Assembly (NCBI RefSeq): GCF_028713855.1
Contig: NZ_JAQTNN010000013.1
Coordinates: 1-64,000, forward strand
Direction: 5' to 3'
Length of the DNA: 64,000 bases
Source: Sulfuricurvum sp.
Lineage (GTDB): Bacteria; Campylobacterota; Campylobacteria; Campylobacterales; Sulfurimonadaceae
The translations under genes were made by a program, and so were the position numbers. The notes below the pieces were generated by a model that made no database searches, was not told where the DNA came from, and worked only from the letters and a program-made list of their open reading frames with translations. Below, in pieces: positions 15,234 to 45,006 of this stretch; the stretch's first letter is position 1; each line of letters opens with the position of its first letter.

Positions 15234-16595
15234 TTACCAGTTAACTTCGGTAGTAAGCATCCAGCTTTGTTTATCGATCATATCACCGACAGTTGCACCG
15301 GTATCAGTTGATAACGCGAGAGCTGCAGTTGATTGTTTAGCGTTTACTGTTTTACCAGAAGCAATGAATTTAACATTTTTGTTATAGTCATATGCTACAC
15401 CGTAAATGATTTGTGTACCATCATTGGTATTATTTGCATTAGTAGCCGCACCTAGACTATTTGTATATTCTGTTTTCACACTGTCATATCGTGCCAAAAC
15501 TGTCCAATCTTGTGCCGGGCGGATTTCACCATTCACTGACCAAGTTTTGAGTTTACGATCATTTGCATTTGCAGTAGCATATTCATATTTAGTTACATCA
15601 TATTGTGCAGCGATCAAGAATTCCGGTTGGCTATAAACTGCGTGGAACCAATAAGCGTTTTTATCATACGTTTGGCTATCAGTCTGCGTTGAACCGTCAT
15701 ACTTTTCATCTTGACTCATGATACCTGCAAATGAGATATTCGCATAGGTGTCTTTATCCAATTTATATTTACCGACTTTTTCACCGTTACCCATCAAGTG
15801 AGCTGTCAAACGCCATTCTTCTGACAATCCAGTACTCAACTTTTGATTTGTAGCTGGGTGGTATCCTTCTCCGTCAAAAATCCCTAATTCACTTGAAAAA
15901 TACGGTGTTTTTGTTTGGAAGTTAACACCCATATCAGCAGAGTTCATAGTATCAACCGCAAGACTTGCACCCGTCGTTGGATTCACACTGAATTTATCTT
16001 CCATAATAACTTTATTGATTGAACGGTAGTACCATGAGTTGTGTTCCTCATAGTCAATCCATGGGCGGTGAGCAACCCCGATTTCAACGCCTGTGTATGG
16101 AAGAACTTTATCAAGATACAAGTAAGCGTATTTAACATACATATTTGCATTACCGGTTGATGATTCAAGCTCATCCGTTGTATCCATGGTTACACGGAAA
16201 TAGTCTTTATCAGTAAAAAATGCTTTTGCTTGAAGGTAGTTACGGCGGAATTCAAAACCTCTAGAGGTATCATTACCTTTTGCATTGTTAGCACCATATG
16301 TATTGCTGCTCAAACCAAAGTAATGTGTGCCACTGAAATCAAGTGTTTTTGCATGAGATTTTACGTTTACGTATTTTTTCATCGCATCTTTGTATTCAGA
16401 AAATGAAGACTCACTCTCACGTTGAGACATATCAACACTTTTTGCGTCAACGAAATCACCCATTTCAACACGGCCTTCACCGGCTGTTGTAAATACTTGG
16501 CCTGTTTTGGCATCCGTATAAAGTGTTAATGTTTCGGCATAAACTGCACCACTCATCATTGCCGCAGCAAGGGCAGATAACGCTACTTTTTTCAT
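15234..16595 (-). CDS. Outer-membrane porin, predicted phosphate-regulated
   Basis: A 453-residue exported protein: signal peptide MKKVALSALAAAMMSGAVYA, then alternating amphipathic strands rich in Tyr, Asn and Asp, ending in EVNW with a C-terminal aromatic residue as in beta-barrel porins. About 60 residues after the signal peptide (to residue 85) are polar and may form a coiled coil. It resembles the general Campylobacterota porins in this size range. ATG 16595 follows AGGAG by 8 bp. A Pho-box-like site upstream and the neighbouring pstS suggest it serves phosphate entry, like OprP/OprO; substrate is inferred. Confidence 0.85.
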   Translation of the reverse strand: MKKVALSALAAAMMSGAVYAETLTLYTDAKTGQVFTTAGEGRVEMGDFVDAKSVDMSQRESESSFSEYKDAMKKYVNVKSHAKTLDFSGTHYFGLSSNTYGANNAKGNDTSRGFEFRRNYLQAKAFFTDKDYFRVTMDTTDELESSTGNANMYVKYAYLYLDKVLPYTGVEIGVAHRPWIDYEEHNSWYYRSINKVIMEDKFSVNPTTGASLAVDTMNSADMGVNFQTKTPYFSSELGIFDGEGYHPATNQKLSTGLSEEWRLTAHLMGNGEKVGKYKLDKDTYANISFAGIMSQDEKYDGSTQTDSQTYDKNAYWFHAVYSQPEFLIAAQYDVTKYEYATANANDRKLKTWSVNGEIRPAQDWTVLARYDSVKTEYTNSLGAATNANNTNDGTQIIYGVAYDYNKNVKFIASGKTVNAKQSTAALALSTDTGATVGDMIDKQSWMLTTEVNW

Positions 16596-16624: not shown

Positions 16625-16672
16625 ATTGTAGAAAAAATAGATTACGTGCGTGTTACATTACAAAATGATTAC
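16625..16672 (-). promoter_or_regulatory. Predicted PhoB site and -10 box of the porin gene
   Basis: Reading the minus strand, GTAA-type half-sites begin at 16672, 16661, 16656 and 16645, giving two pairs with the 11-bp spacing known for PhoB direct repeats. A TACAAT -10 box (16630-16625) begins 15 bp after the last half-site. The same geometry is found at pstS and phoU. Confidence 0.7.
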
Positions 16673-16793
16673 GATAAGGAAAATAAATAATTAATAGAGG
16701 AAAAATAGCTAAAAACTCAAGCCTGAACGCATACGCAAGGACCGGCTTGAAAAACTTAAGGAATTGAAGAAGAAGAAGAAGAGAGAATTAAAT

Positions 16794-16857
16794 GTGCCAC
16801 AGGGGCACCTTTAAATGTACACTATACACTTAGAGGTACCGCCCCATAGGGAGGGGC
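16794..16857 (-). terminator. Two hairpins downstream of pstS
   Basis: GCCCC...GGGGC (16841-16857) and GTGCC-ACAGG-GGCAC (16794-16808) lie 15 and 65 bp past the pstS stop. The second is followed on the minus strand by ATTTAATTC. They probably end the pstS transcript before the porin promoter. A short GAA-repeat tract lies close by at about 16764-16783. Confidence 0.5.
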
Positions 16858-16872
16858 AATAGAATATGAAAC

Positions 16873-17871
16873 TTATTTACCAGCCCAATATTCGCGAACA
16901 AGGTTTGTTGTTTCAACCGGAAGTGGGATGTAACCCAATTTGACTGCGGCTTTGTCACCGTTTTTGAATGCATAGTCAAAAAATTTGATAACTTCAGCAT
17001 TTATTTCTGCTTTCTCTTTTGGCAAAAGGATATACGTTGCCGCTACGATCGGATACGCAGTGTCCCCTTTTTGAGAGACCAATGAACCGTAGAAACCTTC
17101 TGATTTTTTCCAAGAAGCTTGTTTAACCGCTGCCATAAAGTTTGGTGTTGTAGCTGCTACCCATTTACCGCTAGCTGTTTGAAGCGTTGCTGCTGAAAGA
17201 TTATTTTTCTCTTTATACGCGTTTTCGATATATCCGATAGAGTACGGAGTTTGTTTGATGATGTTAGTTACACCCTCGTTTCCTTTTCCGCCGACACCGG
17301 TCGCCCAGCCGATCGCTTTACCGATACCGAACTTGCTTTTCCAGTTGCTAGATGAATCGCTCAAGAAGTCAGTAAATACATACGTAGTTCCTGATCCGTC
17401 TGAACGGTGCGCTACAACGATTTTTTCTGCAGGAAGTTTAACGCCGGCATTGTCAGCAGCGATAGCAGGATCATTCCACATTGTGATTTTACCTGCGAAG
17501 ATATCTGCTACAACACTGTTTTTGAGTTTCAATTTTTCATCCGCAACACCCGGAAGGTTATGGGCAACAACGATCGAACCGATAACCGCAGGAAACTGAG
17601 TCAACCCTGCTTTAGCAAGCTCTTTTGAAGTCAATGGAGCATCTGTTGCACCGAAATCGACAACGCGCTCAGAAATTTGTTTGATACCGCCGCCTGAACC
17701 GATGGATTGATAGTTAACACGAGTGTGAGTCGCTTTTTGGTAGTTATACGCCCAGTCATAGTACACTGGAGCAGGGAACGTAGCACCCGCGCCGTTGATT
17801 TTATCTGCCGCCATGATCGACGTTGCAGCGATTGCAGCGATTACGAAGCCTTTAGTTACTTTGGTTAGCAT
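16873..17871 (-). CDS. pstS: Phosphate ABC transporter, periplasmic phosphate-binding protein
   Basis: A 332-residue exported protein with signal peptide ending SIMA-ADK. The PstS fold shows from its first motif (INGAGATFPAPVYYDW) through SIGSGGGIKQI and HRSDGSGTTYVFTDFL, which carry phosphate ligands. It captures phosphate for PstCAB. The ATG at 17871 follows AAGGA by 9 bp; an in-frame start 30 codons earlier would spoil the signal peptide. It is divergent from phoU, and both promoters carry the same predicted PhoB site. Confidence 0.96.
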   Translation of the reverse strand: MLTKVTKGFVIAAIAATSIMAADKINGAGATFPAPVYYDWAYNYQKATHTRVNYQSIGSGGGIKQISERVVDFGATDAPLTSKELAKAGLTQFPAVIGSIVVAHNLPGVADEKLKLKNSVVADIFAGKITMWNDPAIAADNAGVKLPAEKIVVAHRSDGSGTTYVFTDFLSDSSSNWKSKFGIGKAIGWATGVGGKGNEGVTNIIKQTPYSIGYIENAYKEKNNLSAATLQTASGKWVAATTPNFMAAVKQASWKKSEGFYGSLVSQKGDTAYPIVAATYILLPKEKAEINAEVIKFFDYAFKNGDKAAVKLGYIPLPVETTNLVREYWAGK

Positions 17872-17901
17872 GTGGGTTTGTCCTTGGTATTTGATGGCGA
17901 C

Positions 17902-17933
17902 ATTGTAAAAGCATCGGGTAACGAAATGATTAC
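17902..17933 (-). promoter_or_regulatory. Predicted PhoB site and -10 box of pstS
   Basis: On the minus strand GTAATC (from 17933) and GTTACC (from 17922) are direct repeats 11 bp apart. TACAAT (17907-17902) starts 15 bp after the second repeat, as at the porin and phoU. Confidence 0.75.
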
Positions 17934-17951
17934 AAGCTATTTCCCCCTTTT

Positions 17952-17983
17952 GTAATCTCACGGTTATAAAGCAACGTTATAAT
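17952..17983 (+). promoter_or_regulatory. Predicted PhoB site and -10 box of phoU
   Basis: GTAATC (17952) and GTTATA (17963) are direct repeats 11 bp apart. TATAAT (17978-17983) starts 15 bp after the second, the same spacing as at pstS and the porin. Transcription should begin near 17990, about 30 bp before phoU. Confidence 0.75.
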
Positions 17984-18020: not shown

Positions 18021-18692
18021 ATGCTACCACGCTATGAAAACAAACTCAACGAAATCCGTGGGATGATCTCGACATTGCTTTCTCAAATCATACTTTCGAG
18101 CGAAGAGACCCTTCAAGCATTTGAAAATGACAATCTTGATTTGTACGAGACATCACGCTCTCATCTCAAAAATCTTCAAACGGATGCCAATAAAATCGAC
18201 AATGAAATTATTAAAACATTTGCTCTATTCGGTCCTGAAGCAGATGAATTACGCTTATTGGTAGCCTATTTAAAAATGACCAATGAGATCGACCGTATCG
18301 GTGACGGGATTAAAAAATACAGTAAACGTCTGCATGATCACTGCATGGGCGGATGTGATATGTCTGTTTTAACCAATGCGATCGTTCAACTGCACAAAAC
18401 GACCCTCAATGCGTTACAATACATCGCTGAATGTTTGAAAAATATTGATACTTGCGATGCGGATGATATCTATCGCAAAGTTATGGTCGAAGAGTCGAAA
18501 AATGACGATCTTTTTTCTATCATGGAAAAAGAGCTCTTAAATTTGATCATTGATGCCAATGAACTCGCTGTTGAATATGTGAGAGTTTTAGGAACCCTCC
18601 GAAAACTTGAGCGCATCGGTGATCGTACGGTCAATATCGCCTCGTTAATGCTCTACGCACAAAAAGGCGGAGAGATTCAACTCTACAATTAA
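18021..18692 (+). CDS. phoU: Phosphate signalling protein PhoU
   Basis: A 223-residue all-helical protein with the two PhoU repeats, including the metal-site pattern E-x-x-x-D (NEIDRIGDGIKKYSKRL in the first half; ERIGDRTVNIA in the second). PhoU joins PstB to PhoR and keeps the kinase off when phosphate is plentiful. It is first in a plus-strand run phoU-phoB-phoR-cca-pstC-pstA-pstB, divergent from pstS, behind a Pho-type promoter. Confidence 0.93.
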   Translation: MLPRYENKLNEIRGMISTLLSQIILSSEETLQAFENDNLDLYETSRSHLKNLQTDANKIDNEIIKTFALFGPEADELRLLVAYLKMTNEIDRIGDGIKKYSKRLHDHCMGGCDMSVLTNAIVQLHKTTLNALQYIAECLKNIDTCDADDIYRKVMVEESKNDDLFSIMEKELLNLIIDANELAVEYVRVLGTLRKLERIGDRTVNIASLMLYAQKGGEIQLYN

Positions 18693-18708: not shown

Positions 18709-19383
18709 GTGGGGACGCTAATCGTGATCGTTGAAGATGAAAAAGACATTTTGGAGCTGATGGAGTATCATCTCGCCAAAGAGGGTTTCGAAACGATCGG
18801 TTTTTTAACGACCAAACATGTGTTAGAGGTTTTGGAAGAGGAGAGCGTCGACTTGATGTTGATGGATCGTAATCTTCCCGGTGCAGAGGGATCTGAATTC
18901 GTCGAATCACTTCGTAAAAAAGGGATTCAAACGCCTGTTATCTTTGTCAGTGCCAAACACAAAGACGAAGAGATTGAACAAGGGTTTGAGCGTGGAGGTG
19001 ATGATTATATCACCAAACCTTTCAGTATGAAAGAACTCGTATTACGGGTCAAAGCGATGCTCCGCCGCACCAAAAAACTCTCCAGCGAAGGGAACCTCAT
19101 CTACCGTGACATTTCCCTCAATCTCGCGGCACGTTCCGTGGATATAGAGGGAAAAGCCATCGAACTGACAAAGCTTGAGTTTGATCTGCTTCATGCGTTG
19201 ATCGTTAACCAAAATGTCGTACTTGATCGTGACTATCTCCTCGAACACGTATGGGGAAGCGAAGAAGTATTTCAAGACCGTACCGTTAACGTCGCTATTA
19301 ACCGTCTCAAAGAGAAAATCGACCCCGATAAGACCAAAGAGTATATCAAAACGGTACGGGGAGTCGGATACACACTGTGCTAA
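18709..19383 (+). CDS. phoB: Phosphate response regulator, OmpR/PhoB family
   Basis: A 224-residue regulator: receiver with D53 (LMDRNLPG), switch lysine in TKPFS, and a winged-helix DNA-binding domain (about 125-224; LTKLEFDLLHALI, VWGSEEVFQDRTVNVAINRLKEKI). It starts with GTG 18709 after AAGGGA. Placement between phoU and the phoR-like kinase, in an operon with pst genes, identifies it as the PhoB equivalent. It is the predicted reader of the GTAATC repeats in this window. Confidence 0.9.
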   Translation: MGTLIVIVEDEKDILELMEYHLAKEGFETIGFLTTKHVLEVLEEESVDLMLMDRNLPGAEGSEFVESLRKKGIQTPVIFVSAKHKDEEIEQGFERGGDDYITKPFSMKELVLRVKAMLRRTKKLSSEGNLIYRDISLNLAARSVDIEGKAIELTKLEFDLLHALIVNQNVVLDRDYLLEHVWGSEEVFQDRTVNVAINRLKEKIDPDKTKEYIKTVRGVGYTLC

Positions 19384-20789
19384 GGATACACCAGCTTTTT
19401 TTCCTCAATGTATTAGGTCTCTTTAGTGCCGCCCTTTTGGTTGCTTCACTGATCAGTTTTTTCACCTTAAAAACAATGATTATCGAAGACGGTAAAGAGA
19501 GGTTGATACAAAGTATCGAGCTCCTTCAACCTCAAATTACCCTATCCGGCAACCTCGATTCTCTCGCTCACTCCATTTCCCAAAAAGCACATTTGAGGGT
19601 AACAGTTGTTGCTGAAAACGGTGTCGTAATCGCTGAGAGTGACACCGATAAAAATAAAATGGAAAACCACTCCAATCGTATTGAAATCATGGAAGCGATG
19701 CAAAACCCCTACGGTATCACGATTCGCTATTCCAAAACTTTAAAAACTGATTTCGTGTACGTCGCCAAAAAAATCTCTACCCCGAAAGGGGTCCTCTACT
19801 TTCGTCTTTCGATGAGTTTGAGAAATGTCATGAATCACTTTTACGCGCTATGGATCAAACTTTTTATCGCTTTTACACTTTTGCTCGCAATTGCTCTGAT
19901 GATCGCCTATAAAATCTCTAAAAAAGCCCATTACGATATTCTCCAAATCACTCATTATTTGGATCAGATATCGGCTAAAAATTATCGTGCCGTCCTCAAA
20001 CCCGAATATTTCCGCGAGTTCTTGCAAATCTCGATAATGCTTAAAAATTTGGTCAAAAAACTCCATAACCGCGACAAACAAAAGCGAAAGCATACCGCCA
20101 AACTCCGCCTGATCAACAAGCAGCAAAACGATATCCTCTCAGCCATCAGTCACGAGTTCAAAAATCCGATTGCCGCCATCATGGGATACGCCGAAACACT
20201 TCACGATGATTTGAATATTGACCCTAAAATCAGGGAAAAATTTCTCTCTAAAATTCTCGCCAATACGCAACGTGTCACGTTGATGCTGGATCGTCTGGCT
20301 CTATCGGTCAAACTCGAAAACAACGATCTTTCTATCAAACCGACATTATTTGATCTATCCGATGTATGCACCGAGTCCATTTCAATTTTACAAGCCAAAT
20401 ATCCCACACGCATCATCCGCTATAACGGAATCCAAAAAACCGTATACGCTGATAAAACGATGATTGAACTGGTCATAACCAACCTCATCGACAATGCGCT
20501 CAAATACTCTGAAGAAGAGGTGAACGTCACCCTTAGCAGCAATAGGCTCAGCATCACCGACAAAGGGATTGGAATCGCCCCTGCGGAGCTCGATAAAATC
20601 ACCTCCAAATTTTACCGCGTCCAAAAAAACCGTTGGGACAACTCCATGGGGCTTGGGCTCTCTATCGTCAGCTATATTCTCAAACTTCATGATTCTGTTC
20701 TCCAAATCGAAAGCACATTGGGAATCGGCTCAACCTTCCACTTTTCACTTGAGCATTTAATCCAAAAAAACCGATCATCCAAAAAATGA
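19377..20789 (+). CDS. phoR: Phosphate sensor histidine kinase, PhoR-like
   Basis: A 470-residue kinase with two membrane helices (about 8-30 and 158-179) around a 125-residue periplasmic domain, a short linker, HisKA with H259 (SHEFKNP) and HATPase_c (GLGLSIV). Unlike E. coli PhoR it has a real periplasmic domain and no visible PAS, so sensing may differ. Its GTG start overlaps the phoB stop by 7 bp. The cca gene overlaps its end by 4 bp. Confidence 0.85.
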   Translation: MLRIHQLFFLNVLGLFSAALLVASLISFFTLKTMIIEDGKERLIQSIELLQPQITLSGNLDSLAHSISQKAHLRVTVVAENGVVIAESDTDKNKMENHSNRIEIMEAMQNPYGITIRYSKTLKTDFVYVAKKISTPKGVLYFRLSMSLRNVMNHFYALWIKLFIAFTLLLAIALMIAYKISKKAHYDILQITHYLDQISAKNYRAVLKPEYFREFLQISIMLKNLVKKLHNRDKQKRKHTAKLRLINKQQNDILSAISHEFKNPIAAIMGYAETLHDDLNIDPKIREKFLSKILANTQRVTLMLDRLALSVKLENNDLSIKPTLFDLSDVCTESISILQAKYPTRIIRYNGIQKTVYADKTMIELVITNLIDNALKYSEEEVNVTLSSNRLSITDKGIGIAPAELDKITSKFYRVQKNRWDNSMGLGLSIVSYILKLHDSVLQIESTLGIGSTFHFSLEHLIQKNRSSKK

Positions 20790-22159
20790 TTCTCCTCCCT
20801 CCTCTCCTGCAGGAACTCGTCGAACATCTTTTCACTGCCGGGATAAAACCGATCCTCGTCGGAGGATTCGTCCGCGATCATTTCACCGGGCACAAAACCA
20901 ACGATCTGGATATCGAGCTCTATGGCGTAACCTCTATCGAGGCACTCGAGAGTCTCATTCGACCGTATGGCAAACTGAATCTCATCGGTAAGAGCTTCGG
21001 TGTTCTCAAACTCTCCTATGCGGGGTACGCCATCGATTTTGCCCCGCCCCGTACCGAGTCCAAGTCAGGGTTCGGTCATAAAGGGTTCAATGTATCATGG
21101 CAAAGTGATATCGATTTCACCGCCGCTGCCCGCCGTCGCGATTTCACGATCAATGCCATCGGTTACGACCCGCTGGAGAAAAAGCTGTTAGACCCCTACG
21201 GCGGGATAGCAGATTTAGATGCTAGAAGACTGGTGTGTGTCGATCCTGACACCTTTATAGATGACCCGCTGAGGGTGCTTCGAGCGGTTCAGTTTGCCGC
21301 CCGGTTTGATCTAACATGTGACAAACAACTGTTAGCGCTATGTCGGGATATGATCTGTGCAGGGGCTCTCGCCGATCTCCCGAAAGAGAGAATATTCGAA
21401 GAGTTTAAAAAACTCCTCCTCTTAAGCGCCCGCCCCTCCATCGGGATGACCTTACTGCAAGAAATGGGAGGTCTCTCATTTTTCACCCCCCTTGAATTGC
21501 TTGAAAACACCCTCCAAGATACGGTTTCACATCCTGAAGGTTCCGTTTGGAACCACACTCTGATGAGCCTTGACGTCATGGCTACCATGCGCAGCGGAGT
21601 ATGGAGAGATGACATGGTATTAATGCTTACGATGTTATTACACGACATTGGTAAACCTGACACTACTTTTATAGAAAATCAGGTTCTTAATGCCCCAAAA
21701 CATGCCGAAACAGGTGTTGAAATTGCACGCACGTGGCTCAACCGTATAACGGAGGATAAAGACCTCATCGAGCGGATTCTTCCACTTATCCGTTATCACG
21801 GATGGCCTCGTAAACTGTACCGCTCAAATGCAAAGGACAGCGACATTCTCCGATTAAGCACACACGTATGCATCAATGATTTAATCCGTATTGCTGAAGC
21901 TGATTTTTTCGGACGTGCGTTTGTCACAGAAACACCGGAACACTTTGAAGCGGGAGAGTGGCTGTATAGACGCGCAAATGCTCTTGGTGTATTATTCGAA
22001 GCCCCTAAAGCATTGATACTGGGACGTGATCTGATCGCTCTGGGGATGAAGCCTTCTGAAGCATTCAAAACCCTCTTGGATCGCGCTTATGAAGCGCAAC
22101 TGGAGCAGGAGTTTACCACCAAAGATACGGCATTAGCGTGGCTCGTAACGTGTCTGTAA
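20786..22159 (+). CDS. cca: CCA tRNA nucleotidyltransferase / poly(A) polymerase family with HD domain
   Basis: A 457-residue class II nucleotidyltransferase. The N-terminal catalytic head has VGGFVRDHFTG and the metal-binding DLDIE; the RNA-binding middle has RRRDFTINAIGYD and DPLRVLRAVQFAARF; an HD domain follows (LLHDIGKPDTT). It adds or repairs the CCA end of tRNAs. The start ATG overlaps the phoR stop (ATGA). Its place inside the pho/pst operon is odd; it may simply be co-transcribed, as the next gene starts 46 bp later. The tRNA in this window encodes its own CCA, pointing to a repair role. Confidence 0.9.
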   Translation: MILLPPLLQELVEHLFTAGIKPILVGGFVRDHFTGHKTNDLDIELYGVTSIEALESLIRPYGKLNLIGKSFGVLKLSYAGYAIDFAPPRTESKSGFGHKGFNVSWQSDIDFTAAARRRDFTINAIGYDPLEKKLLDPYGGIADLDARRLVCVDPDTFIDDPLRVLRAVQFAARFDLTCDKQLLALCRDMICAGALADLPKERIFEEFKKLLLLSARPSIGMTLLQEMGGLSFFTPLELLENTLQDTVSHPEGSVWNHTLMSLDVMATMRSGVWRDDMVLMLTMLLHDIGKPDTTFIENQVLNAPKHAETGVEIARTWLNRITEDKDLIERILPLIRYHGWPRKLYRSNAKDSDILRLSTHVCINDLIRIAEADFFGRAFVTETPEHFEAGEWLYRRANALGVLFEAPKALILGRDLIALGMKPSEAFKTLLDRAYEAQLEQEFTTKDTALAWLVTCL

Positions 22160-22205
22160 CCATATTGCAATAAAATTGCCTATATTTTTTGACTCAAGGC
22201 TCGGC

Positions 22206-23057
22206 ATGATTGATAAGATCTTCTCCAACCTAACCCGTTTTAGTGCCCTGCTGATCCTCGTCATCGTTGCGTGGATCTTCGTGGAACTCTATAACCAGTC
22301 GCTTGAAGCGATTAATGCGTTCGGGTTTGATTTCATTACCAAAGACGAATGGGCGCCAAATGTTGATAAGTTCGGAGCATATGCCGCTATTTTCGGCTCC
22401 GTTGCTTCGACATTTTTAGCCATGCTGTTTGCCATCCCTATCGCAATCGGTGTCGCCATTTTCCTCAGTGAAATCGCCCACGACAAGATCAAAGGATTTT
22501 TCGGTGTCAGCGTGGAACTCCTAGCGGCGATTCCTTCTGTCATCTACGGAATGTGGGGATTATTTTATTTCGTCCCTATTATTCGTGATCTTTTCGGAGG
22601 AATGGGAATCGGGCTGCTTAGTGCAGGTATCGTCCTCTCTATCATGATTTTGCCGTTTATGGCAGCGGTTACCCGTGATGCGATGAACACCACCCCCGAT
22701 ATCCTCAAAGAATCGGCTTACGCTCTCGGCGGGACACAATGGGATGTTATCAAAGACGTTATCATCCCTTACGCACGAGCCGGTATTATCGGTTCAATCA
22801 TTTTGGCGTTAGGACGTGCAATCGGTGAGACGATGGCAGTTACCTTTGTAATGGGAAATGTTCATCATACTCCAAGTGCCATTACTGATCCGACAACATC
22901 GATTCCGGTGACGCTCGCAAACGAATTTGCCGAAGCGGACAGTTCACTCTATTTCTCCAGCTTGTTTGAATTAGCGCTGTTGCTGTTAGCAATGAGTTTC
23001 GTCGTTATCGCCATCGCCAAATTTTACTTTTTACGTAAAGAAAGGAGAGGTGTATGA
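22206..23057 (+). CDS. pstC: Phosphate ABC transporter permease PstC
   Basis: A 283-residue permease with about six membrane helices and the ABC permease EAA-like loop (ESAYALGGTQWDVIKDVIIPYARAG, split here by Gly and Thr). It forms the inner-membrane phosphate channel with PstA. ATG 22206 after AAGG is preferred to an in-frame TTG 30 bp upstream. It overlaps pstA by 4 bp. Confidence 0.95.
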   Translation: MIDKIFSNLTRFSALLILVIVAWIFVELYNQSLEAINAFGFDFITKDEWAPNVDKFGAYAAIFGSVASTFLAMLFAIPIAIGVAIFLSEIAHDKIKGFFGVSVELLAAIPSVIYGMWGLFYFVPIIRDLFGGMGIGLLSAGIVLSIMILPFMAAVTRDAMNTTPDILKESAYALGGTQWDVIKDVIIPYARAGIIGSIILALGRAIGETMAVTFVMGNVHHTPSAITDPTTSIPVTLANEFAEADSSLYFSSLFELALLLLAMSFVVIAIAKFYFLRKERRGV

Positions 23058-23896
23058 CTGCGGTTCAAAAACGGGTTTTAATCAATAAAATCGTTCTCGG
23101 TCTCTCAACCCTGAGTGCAATTATCGCCATTGCCTTTTTATTCTGGATTTTGGGTGTTTTGGTGATGAAAGGGGTCGGTGCTCTTAACTGGGATATCTTT
23201 ATTTTCGAAGGCTCCCCTCCGGGATATGCCGAAAGCGGTTTGAAACACGCCCTTGTGGGTCAACTGATTTTAGTATCATTGGCAACCTTCATCGGGGTTC
23301 CGTTCGGGATTTTGGCAGGAACTTACCTAAGCGAATATGGTAAGAACTCAAAGCTAGCGCATGCCATTCGAGATATTTCGGATATTATGATGTCCGCACC
23401 TTCGATCGTCATCGGTGCATTTGTCTATGCAATCGTCGTTATGCCGATGGGGCACTTCAGCGCATGGGCAGGTGCAATTGCGTTGGCGATCATTATGATC
23501 CCGATCATTTTACGTACGACCGACGACATGCTCCAGCTTGTCCCCGGGACGCTTCGCGAAGCGGCATTCGCCCTCGGTGCACCCAAATACAAAGTTATTA
23601 TGGATGTCGTCTATCGTGGAGCAAAAGCAGGTATTTTGACCGGAGTATTACTCGGTATCGCACGTGTCGGCGGTGAGACGGCACCCTTGCTCTTTACCTC
23701 ATTCAATGATAATTTTTTCACGACCGATCTGAACGAAGCGATGCCTTCACTCACAGTTACAATGTTTAACTATGCGATCAGCCCGTATGAAGATTGGCAG
23801 CAGTTGGGATGGGCCGCCGCCTTTATCCTTTCGATGTTTATTTTGGGTCTCAATATTGTGGGACGACTTATTTTATTCGCCGGTAAAAGGAAATAA
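23054..23896 (+). CDS. pstA: Phosphate ABC transporter permease PstA
   Basis: A 280-residue permease with six predicted helices and the EAA loop ([20 protein letters not shown]). It pairs with PstC. It overlaps pstC by 4 bp and is followed 2 bp later by pstB, so the three are clearly translated together. Confidence 0.95.
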
Positions 23897-23898
23897 CT

Positions 23899-24684
23899 AT
23901 GGCAAGTATTATCGATATCAAAGACGAATGTGCGCTTCATGTGCGTGATTTTGAATTTACTTATAAGGGTGCACCTGCTCCAAGTTTGAAAAAAGTGACG
24001 ATGCCGATCGCTAAACATTCGATCACCGCCCTCATCGGACCATCCGGTTGCGGTAAAACAACTCTATTGCGATCCTTTAACCGAATGCACGATTTGTATC
24101 CGGGAAACACCTACAACGGTGAGATAGAGTTCGAAGGACGCAATATCCTCGGCGCAAAAGAGGATTTGATTCACCTCCGTACAAAAATCGGAATGATCTT
24201 TCAAAAACCGACGGCGTTTCCGATGTCGATTTTTGATAATGTTGCTTACGGTATGCGTCTTCAAGGAATTAAAAACAAAACGGAACTGCGCGACCGTGTC
24301 GAAAAAGCACTTCAAGATGCCGCCATCTGGAAAGAGGTAAGCGACCGCCTTAAAAACGATGCAAATGGCCTCTCCGGCGGTCAGCAGCAGCGTCTGTGTA
24401 TTGCCCGTGCGATTGCGGTGGAGCCGGAAGTTCTTTTGTTTGATGAACCGACCTCCGCACTTGACCCGATCTCTACTCAGGGGATCGAAAAGCTGGTTAT
24501 CGAGCTCAAAGAGAAAGTCAGTATCATCATTGTCACGCACAATATGCAGCAAGCGGCACGGGTCAGTGATTACACCGGATTTATGTATTTGGGAGAGCTT
24601 ATCGAATTGGGTCACACCGAAGAACTGTTCGTTACCCCGAAAGAAAAATTGACACAAGAATATATCACCGGTAAGTTTGGTTGA
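23899..24684 (+). CDS. pstB: Phosphate ABC transporter ATP-binding protein PstB
   Basis: A 261-residue ATPase with Walker [10 protein letters not shown], the Q-loop, signature LSGGQQQR, Walker [12 protein letters not shown] and the H-loop ([13 protein letters not shown]). It powers PstCA and, with PhoU, reports transport state to PhoR. It is the last gene of the run; a strong terminator begins at its stop codon. Confidence 0.97.
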
Positions 24685-41345: not shown

Positions 41346-41373
41346 GTAATCCCATAGTAATCTAAATGTAACC
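41346..41373 (+). promoter_or_regulatory. Predicted triple PhoB site before the olsF-like gene
   Basis: GTAATC (41346), GTAATC (41357) and GTAACC (41368) are three direct repeats exactly 11 bp apart. This is the same half-site found before pstS, phoU and the porin. The -10 position expected 15 bp after the last repeat (41383) holds TGCATA, a poor match, so the exact promoter is unclear. The start codon is 82 bp beyond the site. Confidence 0.65.
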
Positions 41374-41454: not shown

Positions 41455-43179
41455 ATGGTTAGCGCTGAATTCATTTTACGTAAAGAACATCCTAAAGTAT
41501 TTCAGTATCCGACAATCATCAATAAAACAATTGTTGGAATGACACGGTTACTTCTCCATGAAAAATCGATCAATCGATTTATGGAGAATCATCAGGAGAA
41601 AAGTGGATTGGAGTTTGTAAATGCTGTATTGGAATACCTGAATGTATCGTATAAAACGATTCATCGTCAAATCGAGAATATTCCCACAATGGGTAAAGTG
41701 ATAATTGTTGCCAATCATCCTTTAGGGGCGTTAGATGCTCTTTGTTTAATTCAGATGGTATGTTCGGTGCGTCAAGATAAAAAAGTAAAGATTGTGGCTA
41801 ATCATCTCCTCGGAGAGATCACACAACTCAAAGAGTTTATGATCGGCGTGGATAATATTAACGATAAACTCTCCAAACATGCCCTCCGGCAAATCGATAG
41901 TGCGTTACAAGCGGAAGAGGCGGTTATCTTTTTCCCTTCCGGAGAAGTTTCCCGCGCAGGATTATTTGGTGTTAAAGAGGGTTCATGGAAAGGGGGATTT
42001 GTAAAATTTGCTAAACGCAATGCAGCTCCGATACTTCCTGTACATATCAAGGGAAAGAACAGCCCTCTCTTTTACGCAGTCTCATGGATTTATAAACCGC
42101 TTGGAGCATTGTTACTGAGCCACGAAGTTTTTGCGGCACGCAACCGTGTATTTGATTTTACGATCGGTCAGATGGTGAGCGAGAAAGCACTCAGCGATTT
42201 TAATTTGAGTGAAAAACGTCATGCGAGATTATTCCGTAAACATCTTCTACGCATCGCAAAAGGGAAAAAAGGTATTTACCCGACAGAATGTTCTATCGCG
42301 CACCCTGTGTCACGTCAGGAGCTTAGAAGTGAACTTCGTCAGGGTGAATTGCTGGGATTGACCAGTGATAACAAACAAATCTATCTTATTGAGTATGAGA
42401 ATGCCCCTAACATCATAAACGAGATCGGACGGCTCCGTGAATATTCATTTCGCAAAGTTGGTGAAGGGAGCGGTCATGCACGCGATATCGATGCGTATGA
42501 CCGTTATTACCATCATTTGGTACTCTGGGATGATGAGGCACTGGAAATTGCAGGAGCCTATCGTATCGGTGAATGTGAATGGATTCTTTCATGGTTGGGC
42601 AAAGAAGGTCTTTATATGTCTGATTTGTGTGATATGAACGATCAGTTTGATTCTGTATTGGAAGATGCAATCGAACTTGGACGCAGCTTTGTGCAACCAA
42701 AATACTGGGGAAGTCGGGCGCTGGATTATCTGTGGCAAGGGATCGGTGCCTATCTTAGCCATAACCCTCAAGTAAAATATATGATGGGACCGGTGAGTAT
42801 TTCGGGGAGTTTCCCTAAACATGCTCAGGAAGCATTGGTCTATTTTTATACCCTTTACTTCGGTGCCGAACACACGATGGTGAGAGCAAAATCCCCCCAT
42901 TTTCTCTCTGATTATGTCCGCTCAGAATTTAAAGAATTGTTTGATGGAGACAACTACGCTGAAGATTTCAAACGGCTCAAAGATTATCTAAAAGCGCTCG
43001 ATGTCTCTGTCCCTACTCTCTATAAACAGTACAGTGAGTTATGTGAAGAAGGGGGCGTAGAATTCATGGATTTCGGGATAGATGCTGATTTTAACAACTG
43101 TATTGACGGCTATATTCTCGTTGATATTCGAAAAATAAAAGAGTCAAAACGCCAGCGTTATATTAGAGGGGTGGAGTAA
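41455..43179 (+). CDS. olsF: Bifunctional ornithine-lipid acyltransferase, OlsF-like
   Basis: A 574-residue fusion. The N-terminal half is a PlsC-type acyltransferase (VANHPLGALD with H88 and D94; FFPSGEVSRAG). The C-terminal half resembles the OlsB-type N-acyltransferase / GNAT fold (LREYSFRKVGEGSG, YDRYYHHLVLWD, AGAYRIG). OlsF makes ornithine lipids from ornithine by N- then O-acylation, giving a membrane lipid without phosphorus. ATG 41455 follows AAAGG by 8 bp; a frame from 41377 lacks such a site and crosses the leader. The Pho-box-like repeats upstream support phosphate control. A close alternative is a haemolysin-like acyltransferase of unknown substrate. Confidence 0.82.
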   Translation: MVSAEFILRKEHPKVFQYPTIINKTIVGMTRLLLHEKSINRFMENHQEKSGLEFVNAVLEYLNVSYKTIHRQIENIPTMGKVIIVANHPLGALDALCLIQMVCSVRQDKKVKIVANHLLGEITQLKEFMIGVDNINDKLSKHALRQIDSALQAEEAVIFFPSGEVSRAGLFGVKEGSWKGGFVKFAKRNAAPILPVHIKGKNSPLFYAVSWIYKPLGALLLSHEVFAARNRVFDFTIGQMVSEKALSDFNLSEKRHARLFRKHLLRIAKGKKGIYPTECSIAHPVSRQELRSELRQGELLGLTSDNKQIYLIEYENAPNIINEIGRLREYSFRKVGEGSGHARDIDAYDRYYHHLVLWDDEALEIAGAYRIGECEWILSWLGKEGLYMSDLCDMNDQFDSVLEDAIELGRSFVQPKYWGSRALDYLWQGIGAYLSHNPQVKYMMGPVSISGSFPKHAQEALVYFYTLYFGAEHTMVRAKSPHFLSDYVRSEFKELFDGDNYAEDFKRLKDYLKALDVSVPTLYKQYSELCEEGGVEFMDFGIDADFNNCIDGYILVDIRKIKESKRQRYIRGVE

Positions 43180-44086
43180 AACCCATCGCCTCAAAACATT
43201 CTTGGACAAAATCTTTCTCGGACACAATCGTATATTTCTCATTTTCATAGGTAAATTCAAGCGACTGCGCGTGAAGCAGCAGGCGTGTTGATCCTCCTAT
43301 TTCCAATCGTTCATCAGGTGATAATTCTTTTTTTATGAATCGGACAACATCTTGTTCCTCCGGGCCGTACACCGGATCACCGATGATCGGATGTTTCACG
43401 TGGAACAAATGAACCCGTATCTGGTGAGTGCGTCCGGTCAATGGAGATGCCTCTACAAGCGTCATATCATGCTCAGGAAAGTACCGTAGAGGTCTAATAA
43501 CGGTATGGGCGGGTTTTCCTTTTGGGTCAACTTTTACCACCATACTGATTAAAAGATTGGGATGGTCTATTCGAAATAGAGGTTCGTGTATATCGATAAC
43601 GTCTTCTACGTGACCCTTTACCATAGCAAGATATTGTTTGCTAATGGCACGCTCAGAGAATAACTTCTTTAAAACAGTCTCACTCTTTTTGTTTCGAGAT
43701 ACTAAAACTAAACCGCTCGTCTCTTGATCGATACGGTGTGTGGCGTTAGCATCGTCACCAAACGTATGTTTGATCTCGTCATTCAGTGTATAGGGGGAAA
43801 GACGGCTATGTGGGTGAACACTCAAACCACTGGGTTTGTCGTAAATCGCAAAGTCGTTAGTGACAAACATCGGTTTGAATCCACGTGATAACGGCTCAAA
43901 ACAAATGAACTCGCAATCCCCCTCAATGAATCCGAATTGGTCACACATAACGATACCGTTTTGAGATAAACGACCTCTGGCAATGAGACGCTGTCCTTCA
44001 CTTCGTGATAGTCCTAACTCTTCCATTAAAAAGGTTAGTGCCATTTGGCTGACAGGAGCGTGTAGTTTTTTGGTAATGAAAGGCAT
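43163..44086 (-). CDS. RluA-family pseudouridine synthase (tandem copy 2)
   Basis: A 307-residue enzyme with an N-terminal S4-like RNA-binding region (about 12-70) and an RluA catalytic domain with D120 in HRIDQETSG. It converts uridines in rRNA or tRNA to pseudouridine. Copy 1 starts 5 bp upstream and is very similar along its whole length, so this is a tandem duplication. Its last 17 bp overlap the convergent olsF-like gene. Which uridine it modifies cannot be told. Confidence 0.9.
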   Translation of the reverse strand: MPFITKKLHAPVSQMALTFLMEELGLSRSEGQRLIARGRLSQNGIVMCDQFGFIEGDCEFICFEPLSRGFKPMFVTNDFAIYDKPSGLSVHPHSRLSPYTLNDEIKHTFGDDANATHRIDQETSGLVLVSRNKKSETVLKKLFSERAISKQYLAMVKGHVEDVIDIHEPLFRIDHPNLLISMVVKVDPKGKPAHTVIRPLRYFPEHDMTLVEASPLTGRTHQIRVHLFHVKHPIIGDPVYGPEEQDVVRFIKKELSPDERLEIGGSTRLLLHAQSLEFTYENEKYTIVSEKDFVQECFEAMGFTPPL

Positions 44087-44340
44087 AGTGATTATTTCGC
44101 TTTCATGGCTTCAAAACATTGGGTAAGAAAATCTTCTCGTGAAACGATATGATAGGGATTTTCTCCATACACAAATTCGAGAGAATGGGCATGAAGTAAA
44201 AGACGGGAAGCACCGGTATTATTAAATCGTTCTTCCAATGACATCTCTCGATCTAAAAAGCGAACGGCATCATTTTCATCCTGATTATAGATAGGATCAC
44301 CGACAATAGGATGTTTCACGTGGAACAAATGAACCCGTAT
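43389..44340 (-). repeat. 32-bp identical segment shared by the tandem pseudouridine synthase genes
   Basis: Positions 43389-43420 and 44309-44340 are identical over 32 bp, while the flanking DNA differs at many third codon positions. The segment codes for the conserved HQIRVHLFHVKHP region. It marks either strong constraint or recent gene conversion between the copies. Confidence 0.8.
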
Positions 44341-45006
44341 TTGATGCTGACGCCCCGTATAGGGAGAAGCTTCGACGAGGGTTGTATCCGTATCCGGGAA
44401 ATAACGCAGAGGTGTGATAAAGGTACGGGAAGGTTTTCCTTCTGGATGAACCCGTACAATCATTCGTACGATAGAACTTTCATCTTCTCTGCGCAACAGA
44501 GGTTCTTGAATGTCGAGAGGCTCTTTGAGATGACCTTTAACCATTGCTAAATAACGTTTGGTGATCTCGCGCTCTTCAAACATCATTTTTAAAACACGCT
44601 CACTCGTTTTATTACGTGCCGCTAAAACCAAACCACTCGTCTCTTGATCGATACGGTGGGCGATATTGGCATCATGTCCGAAACGGTGTTTGATCTCATC
44701 ATTGAGCGAATAGGGAGTATGACGGTTTTGCGGGTGAACCAGTAAACCGCTGGGTTTGTCATAGACGGCAAACTCTTCAGCAACAAACGTCGGATTAAGA
44801 CCCATTGAGAGAGGCTCAAAACAGACGAAGTCAAAGTCCCCTTCAATAAATCCAGCGTTATTAGACATGGCAACACCGTTTTGAAAAAGTCTCCCTTTGG
44901 AAATAAGGCGCTGTGCTTCGCTTTGGGCAATCCCTAATTCGTGCATTAAAAAGAGAAATGCTTTTTGGCGAGTAGGAGCGTGAAGCTTTTTGATGACGAA
45001 GGGCAA
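44092..45006 (-). CDS. RluA-family pseudouridine synthase (tandem copy 1)
   Basis: A 304-residue paralogue of the next gene, with the same layout and the catalytic D120 in HRIDQETSG, KPSGLLVHPQNR and TGRQHQIRVHLFHV. It is the upstream member of the pair and is divergent from purB (80 bp between starts). Both copies look intact, so they may have split targets. I cannot assign it to RluC, RluD or TruC. Confidence 0.9.
   Translation of the reverse strand: MPFVIKKLHAPTRQKAFLFLMHELGIAQSEAQRLISKGRLFQNGVAMSNNAGFIEGDFDFVCFEPLSMGLNPTFVAEEFAVYDKPSGLLVHPQNRHTPYSLNDEIKHRFGHDANIAHRIDQETSGLVLAARNKTSERVLKMMFEEREITKRYLAMVKGHLKEPLDIQEPLLRREDESSIVRMIVRVHPEGKPSRTFITPLRYFPDTDTTLVEASPYTGRQHQIRVHLFHVKHPIVGDPIYNQDENDAVRFLDREMSLEERFNNTGASRLLLHAHSLEFVYGENPYHIVSREDFLTQCFEAMKAK

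Follow-up and report, generated by a model that had tools for sequence, protein, structure and literature searches.

The closest described counterparts of the promoters discussed here are the Pho boxes of Escherichia coli. At pstS of E. coli K-12, CTGTCAT repeats stand 11 bp apart and TATAAC follows 15 bp after GTCA, while the half-sites of phoA are likewise 11 bp apart, with TATAGT 15 bp after GTCA. Read by eye, the phoB (CATAAT) and phoE (GTAAT, TTAAC, TAAAAA) promoters match the same spacing. E. coli also has a Pho-controlled porin, PhoE, and Pseudomonas OprP is under the control of PhoB. In Campylobacter jejuni, the PhosR box was reportedly given (in 2006, by Wosten) as GTTTC-N-AAAA-N-GTTTC; C. 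jejuni is not known to have PhoU. PhosR/PhosS, the two-component system for phosphate in C. jejuni, comes from the phylum to which Sulfuricurvum also belongs and controls pst genes and PhoX (PMC9449129, PMC3197622). For E. coli, the ChIP-seq site of PhoB at phoE is printed as TGTAATAAAAGCGTAAAC (PMC10294691).

In the window (the whole stretch of Sulfuricurvum DNA that was analysed, 64,000 nucleotides), the following genes are relevant:

15234..16595, minus strand: porin, predicted 16-stranded barrel with an N-terminal extension
16873..17871, minus strand: pstS (NCBIfam TIGR00975, 355.5 bits, cut-off 205)
18021..18692, plus strand: phoU-like gene (Pfam PhoU, 69.6 bits, cut-off 23.5; NCBIfam phoU_full, 94.9 bits, below 130)
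18709..19383, plus strand: OmpR/PhoB-family response regulator, PhosR/PhoB-like (Response_reg and Trans_reg_C)
19377..20789, plus strand: sensor histidine kinase, PhosS/PhoR-like (HisKA and HATPase_c; PhoR/PnpS models below cut-off)
20786..22159, plus strand: cca-like gene between kinase and pstC, presumably a tRNA nucleotidyltransferase; present in 19 of the 20 loci compared within the genus
22206..23057, plus strand: pstC (TIGR02138, 286.5 bits, cut-off 196)
23054..23896, plus strand: pstA (TIGR00974, 270.9 bits, cut-off 193)
23899..24684, plus strand: pstB (TIGR00972, 372.6 bits, cut-off 343)
41455..43179, plus strand: olsF, bifunctional ornithine lipid synthase (NF052615, 766.9 bits, equivalog cut-off 620)

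The best NCBIfam model for the response regulator is PhoB (TIGR02154), at 192.1 bits and below its cut-off of 296.2; we therefore call it PhoB-like rather than PhoB. That both the regulator and PhoU stay below their NCBIfam equivalog cut-offs counts against reading the repeats described below as Pho boxes. The regulator is 36% identical to E. coli PhoB, and helix EDRTVDVHIRRL of the latter aligns with QDRTVNVAINRL. Of the E. coli PhoB residues, R193, R201, T217 and R219 are retained, whereas H198 and R200 differ; the arginine that presumably contacts the G of the core is among those retained.

The original prediction held that the porin, pstS and phoU promoters share a repeat, GTAATC-N5-GTAA or GTTA, whose second half-site begins exactly 15 bp before a TANAAT box. 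The window displays the following candidate sites:

16625..16656, minus strand: porin Pho box with -10, GTAACA-N5-GTAATC-N9-TACAAT
16658..16672, minus strand: second porin Pho box, 16 bp above the first, GTAATC-N5-GTAA
17902..17933, minus strand: pstS Pho box with -10, GTAATC-N5-GTTACC-N9-TACAAT
17952..17983, plus strand: phoU Pho box with -10, GTAATC-N5-GTTATA-N9-TATAAT, placed back to back with that of pstS
22145..22176, plus strand: pstC Pho box with -10, GTAACG-N5-GTAACC-N9-TAAAAT, overlapping the cca 3′ end
41346..41372, plus strand: triple GTAAY repeat upstream of olsF, with TGCATA at 15 bp and no good -10

For pstS (GTAATC-N5-GTTA at 17919-17933, minus strand) and phoU (17952-17966, plus strand) both the repeat and its distance of 15 bp to TACAAT and TATAAT, respectively, are as predicted. 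The porin requires a correction of register. Its upstream region carries four GTAA half-sites on the minus strand, at 16672, 16661, 16656 and 16645 (spacings 11, 5 and 11), and TACAAT begins 15 bp past the last of these, so that the -10-linked pair is GTAACA-N5-GTAATC. The predicted pair GTAATC-N5-GTAA does exist at 16658-16672, but its second half lies 31 bp from the -10 box; the fixed distance belongs to the pair one box downstream. The pstC box and the olsF triple repeat are additional to the three promoters named before.

Two features of these arrangements may be mentioned separately. Within 16641-16672, the two porin boxes are offset by 16-17 bp, which is no multiple of 11 bp, and this holds for 14 of the 20 loci from the genus. 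The pstS and phoU boxes (17902-17983) are 18 bp apart, and regulator dimers on these neighbouring sites may interact.

Frequencies were determined for a composite pattern, GTWAYN6GTWAYN10TANAAT, i.e. two GTWAY half-sites 11 bp apart with the second one 15 bp before TANAAT. The window holds it four times, at the porin, pstS, phoU and pstC, against a mean of 0.005, and none of 200 dinucleotide shuffles contained four; GTAATCN5GTWA alone is found six times against an expected mean of 0.22. With one mismatch, the latter is near chance level in the window (12 versus 8.2 expected), and the composite with one or two mismatches is no commoner than its reversed control. The signal is thus confined to exact sites, and only exact matches were counted because the mismatched composite is lost in noise.

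The genome (2,811,533 bases in 26 contigs) was searched with a looser form of the -10 box, TANNAT, which yields eight exact matches. Six are correctly oriented before phoX, pit, porin, pstS, phoU and pstC; a seventh arises on the reverse strand because the phoX repeats are partly palindromic, and the eighth (C18:18728) lies without an obvious phosphate gene. Exact triple repeats are found in this genome only at phoX, pit and olsF. The genome-wide search that had been proposed as a check hence finds the motif concentrated before phosphate genes. The phoX gene (contig C1) matches Pfam PhoX, and the pit gene (contig C5) reaches 466 bits with the PitA model, below its cut-off of 800. Two further genes, one presumably galU-like (L014) and one for a small secreted protein (L027), display near-motifs only and are not claimed as targets. 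Contigs C1 and C9 carry the same pattern matches in mirrored order, which suggests a duplicated or doubly assembled stretch.

Conservation was assessed in 20 loci around phoU, taken from 36 other genomes of the genus. The full motif precedes the porin in all 20, pstS in 16 of 20, phoU in 14 of 20, and pstC in 16 of 19. It starts 58-73 bases ahead of the start codon; the half-site and -10 columns are nearly invariant and the intervening bases more variable. Before the operon-internal genes it was found in none of these loci (regulator 0/20, kinase 0/20, cca 0/19). Loss of the strict motif before phoU (6/20), pstS (4/20) and pstC (3/19) counts against Pho boxes, and some phoU promoters of relatives have GTGA in the second half-site. 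In 37 genomes of the genus, composite matches number 120 against 15 for the reversed pattern; 23 further genomes from the order give 34 against 7. Triple repeats number 96 against 44 in the control, or 91 against 24 if one genome with a repetitive control is omitted. Among 260 distinct 150-base upstream regions of porin, pstS, phoU and pstC at the order level, the half-sites are spaced by 11 bp in 218 (runner-up 16 bp, in 22); given an 11-bp pair, TANAAT lies 15 bp on in 145 of the 260, 16 bp on in 11 and 13 bp on in one. As the upstream and genome sets overlap in genomes and ancestry, these counts do not represent independent events.

Three features expected of PhoB-type promoters are present: direct repeats of 11 bp, a fixed distance to the -10 box, and a place before phosphate-acquisition genes. 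The 11-bp periodicity, which had been named as a sign of PhoB, is borne out by the exact spacing throughout genus and order. The stated difference between this half-site and that of E. coli is correct for the consensus only, GTAAY in place of CTGTCAT or GTCAT; the geometry is identical, and GTAAT half-sites occur at some E. coli sites, e.g. phoE. The geometry is thus the classical PhoB one and GTAAY a shift of preference within the range of PhoB, which makes these sites a lineage variant rather than the E. coli consensus.

Based on this dataset, we consider it highly probable that the sites are Pho boxes of the PhoB/PhosR-type regulator of Campylobacterota that is encoded next to phoU, and that the regulon includes the porin. 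The phosphate-starvation switch very probably docks on this repeated signal. In the proposed mechanism, phosphate starvation would cause the adjacent kinase to phosphorylate response regulator 18709-19383. Repeat geometry and regulator family suggest that a dimer of the regulator would then bind, head to tail, to the pair of direct repeats with their 11-bp period and GTAAY core. In the sequence, the box stands in for a -35 element, the -10 hexamer starting 15 bp past the second core. Putative targets, all of which carry the motif, are the porin, pstS, the phoU-regulator-kinase operon, pstCAB, pit, phoX and olsF; pit, phoX and olsF would be additions to an E. coli-type set. The box ahead of phoU, regulator and kinase would imply autoregulation, and the porin may act as a phosphate-starvation channel of the outer membrane ahead of PstS.

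The porin of the window has no match in Pfam or NCBIfam, and a sequence-profile search of the PDB with the porin alignment returned nothing credible (best E 0.2). Pfam Porin_4 is matched by 3 of 43 relatives (best E 3.8e-5), and Porin_O_P by one of the 43 (E 0.0097) and not by the window porin. An AlphaFold2 model built with 43 sequences displays a 16-stranded barrel (mean pLDDT 76.2, pTM 0.73) with a poorly modelled N-terminal extension. Foldseek ranks Vibrio chitoporin and OmpT first, and VIA-align gives nearly equal scores for OprO (Z 26.9, rmsd 4.0, 322 aligned), OprP (Z 26.6, 3.0, 313) and PorB (Z 26.4, 3.3, 309), a tie that extends to other general porins, so that the fold alone does not settle selectivity. 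Pseudomonas OprP and OprO also are 16-stranded barrels with an N-terminal extension, at 13-14% identity to the window porin. On the role of the porin, genomic context says more than the fold does.

This context was surveyed in named relatives of the porin, of which 181 were found and 80 kept; 76 had a start codon and at least 100 bases upstream, and four were dropped. The exact composite box precedes 39 of the 76 (reversed control 0/76), 55 lie within 6 kb of a pst, phoU, regulator or kinase gene, and 33 are both near and boxed. The box is present in all 21 members of L258-L277 and L314, and in 18 of the remaining 55. The 37 relatives without a strict box count against the Pho-box reading; either their box has drifted, as with GTGA at phoU, or the link is not universal. 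Ten order-level porin loci were inspected. Five porins have a box of their own with no pst gene in the stretch inspected, four of them on another contig than phoU; two lie between pstS and pstC, within the pst operon (L238, L241), and one is divergent from the regulator (L234). The remaining two, with neither box nor pho neighbours, again speak against the link. On balance, the porin probably belongs to the phosphate-uptake response, and the tie to phosphate uptake asserted in the original prediction is strong, with 55 of 76 relatives near pst or pho genes and 39 of 76 boxed; boxes are kept even on another contig than phoU.

In three of the 20 same-genus loci (L138:935-2362, L141:637-2052 and L142:509-1891), the porin adjoining pstS shares with the window porin only its first 76-78 residues and the promoter; the remainder gave no tblastn match, as would be expected of an exchanged barrel.

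Other explanations of these repeats were weighed. Chance or general promoter composition would fit the near-chance counts of mismatched patterns; with four exact composites in the window where 0.005 are expected, 120 against 15 in the genus, and conserved positions in orthologous promoters that refute it, we give this explanation practically no weight. The repeats could also be read by another member of the OmpR family, e.g. one whose gene immediately precedes phoX. Tandem repeats are common binding sites of this family, and a second response-regulator gene does adjoin phoX. The operon of phoU, regulator and kinase is itself boxed, however, and its regulator adjoins the boxed genes in every one of the 20 loci from the genus and stands near the porin in many members of the order, which makes another reader very improbable.

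More weight, if still unlikely, is due to the idea that the porin box was inherited through adjacency to pstS and that the protein is a general porin without a role in phosphate uptake. The porin neighbours pstS in all 20 same-genus loci, and in fold it resembles PorB and other general porins no less than OprO and OprP. Against this, half of the ten order-level porins keep a box without a pst gene in the stretch inspected, four of them on a contig apart from phoU, and in further loci the porin lies within the pst operon or next to the regulator. A box kept away from pst genes fits a working phosphate link rather than adjacency alone, and Pho boxes serving the regulator next to phoU, with the porin among its targets, remain our preferred reading.

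The consensus for the PhoB regulon that had been offered proves usable after refinement to GTWAY-N6-GTWAY-N10-TANAAT. It would represent a Pho-box consensus for a large group of sulfur-oxidising bacteria, and predicts a phosphate regulon of the genes listed above as putative targets. None was found in the literature searched: titles and opening parts of abstracts on Pho boxes and PhosR sites of Campylobacterota or Epsilonproteobacteria, and on porins of Sulfuricurvum or Sulfurimonas, with subscription papers mostly outside, describe neither such a box nor the porin. It also suggests what a porin family hardly recognised by Pfam probably does. Taken together, the data describe a lineage-specific form of an established promoter type, together with a likely new family of phosphate-starvation porins. 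A bolder hypothesis, of which we are somewhat less than half convinced, is that free-living Campylobacterota own a porin family for phosphate starvation that has stayed GTAAY-boxed through repeated rearrangement, a counterpart of OprP and PhoE with independent sequence, its barrel exchanged in some species behind a fixed promoter and N-terminus. If true, a porin family largely missed by Pfam would be kept in the Pho regulon by its GTAAY box.

Ornithine lipid synthesis may be a further branch of this response. OlsF is reported to be induced by low phosphate in Vibrio cholerae (PMC12186959). The window protein passes the equivalog cut-off for synthases of the OlsF type, and olsF-like genes of relatives are also preceded by triple repeats. 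The lack of a clear -10 box at 15 bp counts against a Pho box at olsF; that this triple box controls olsF in Sulfuricurvum is only predicted. At 43163-45006, there are two adjacent paralogous genes (307 and 304 amino acids), arranged head to tail, which are presumably pseudouridine-synthase-like.
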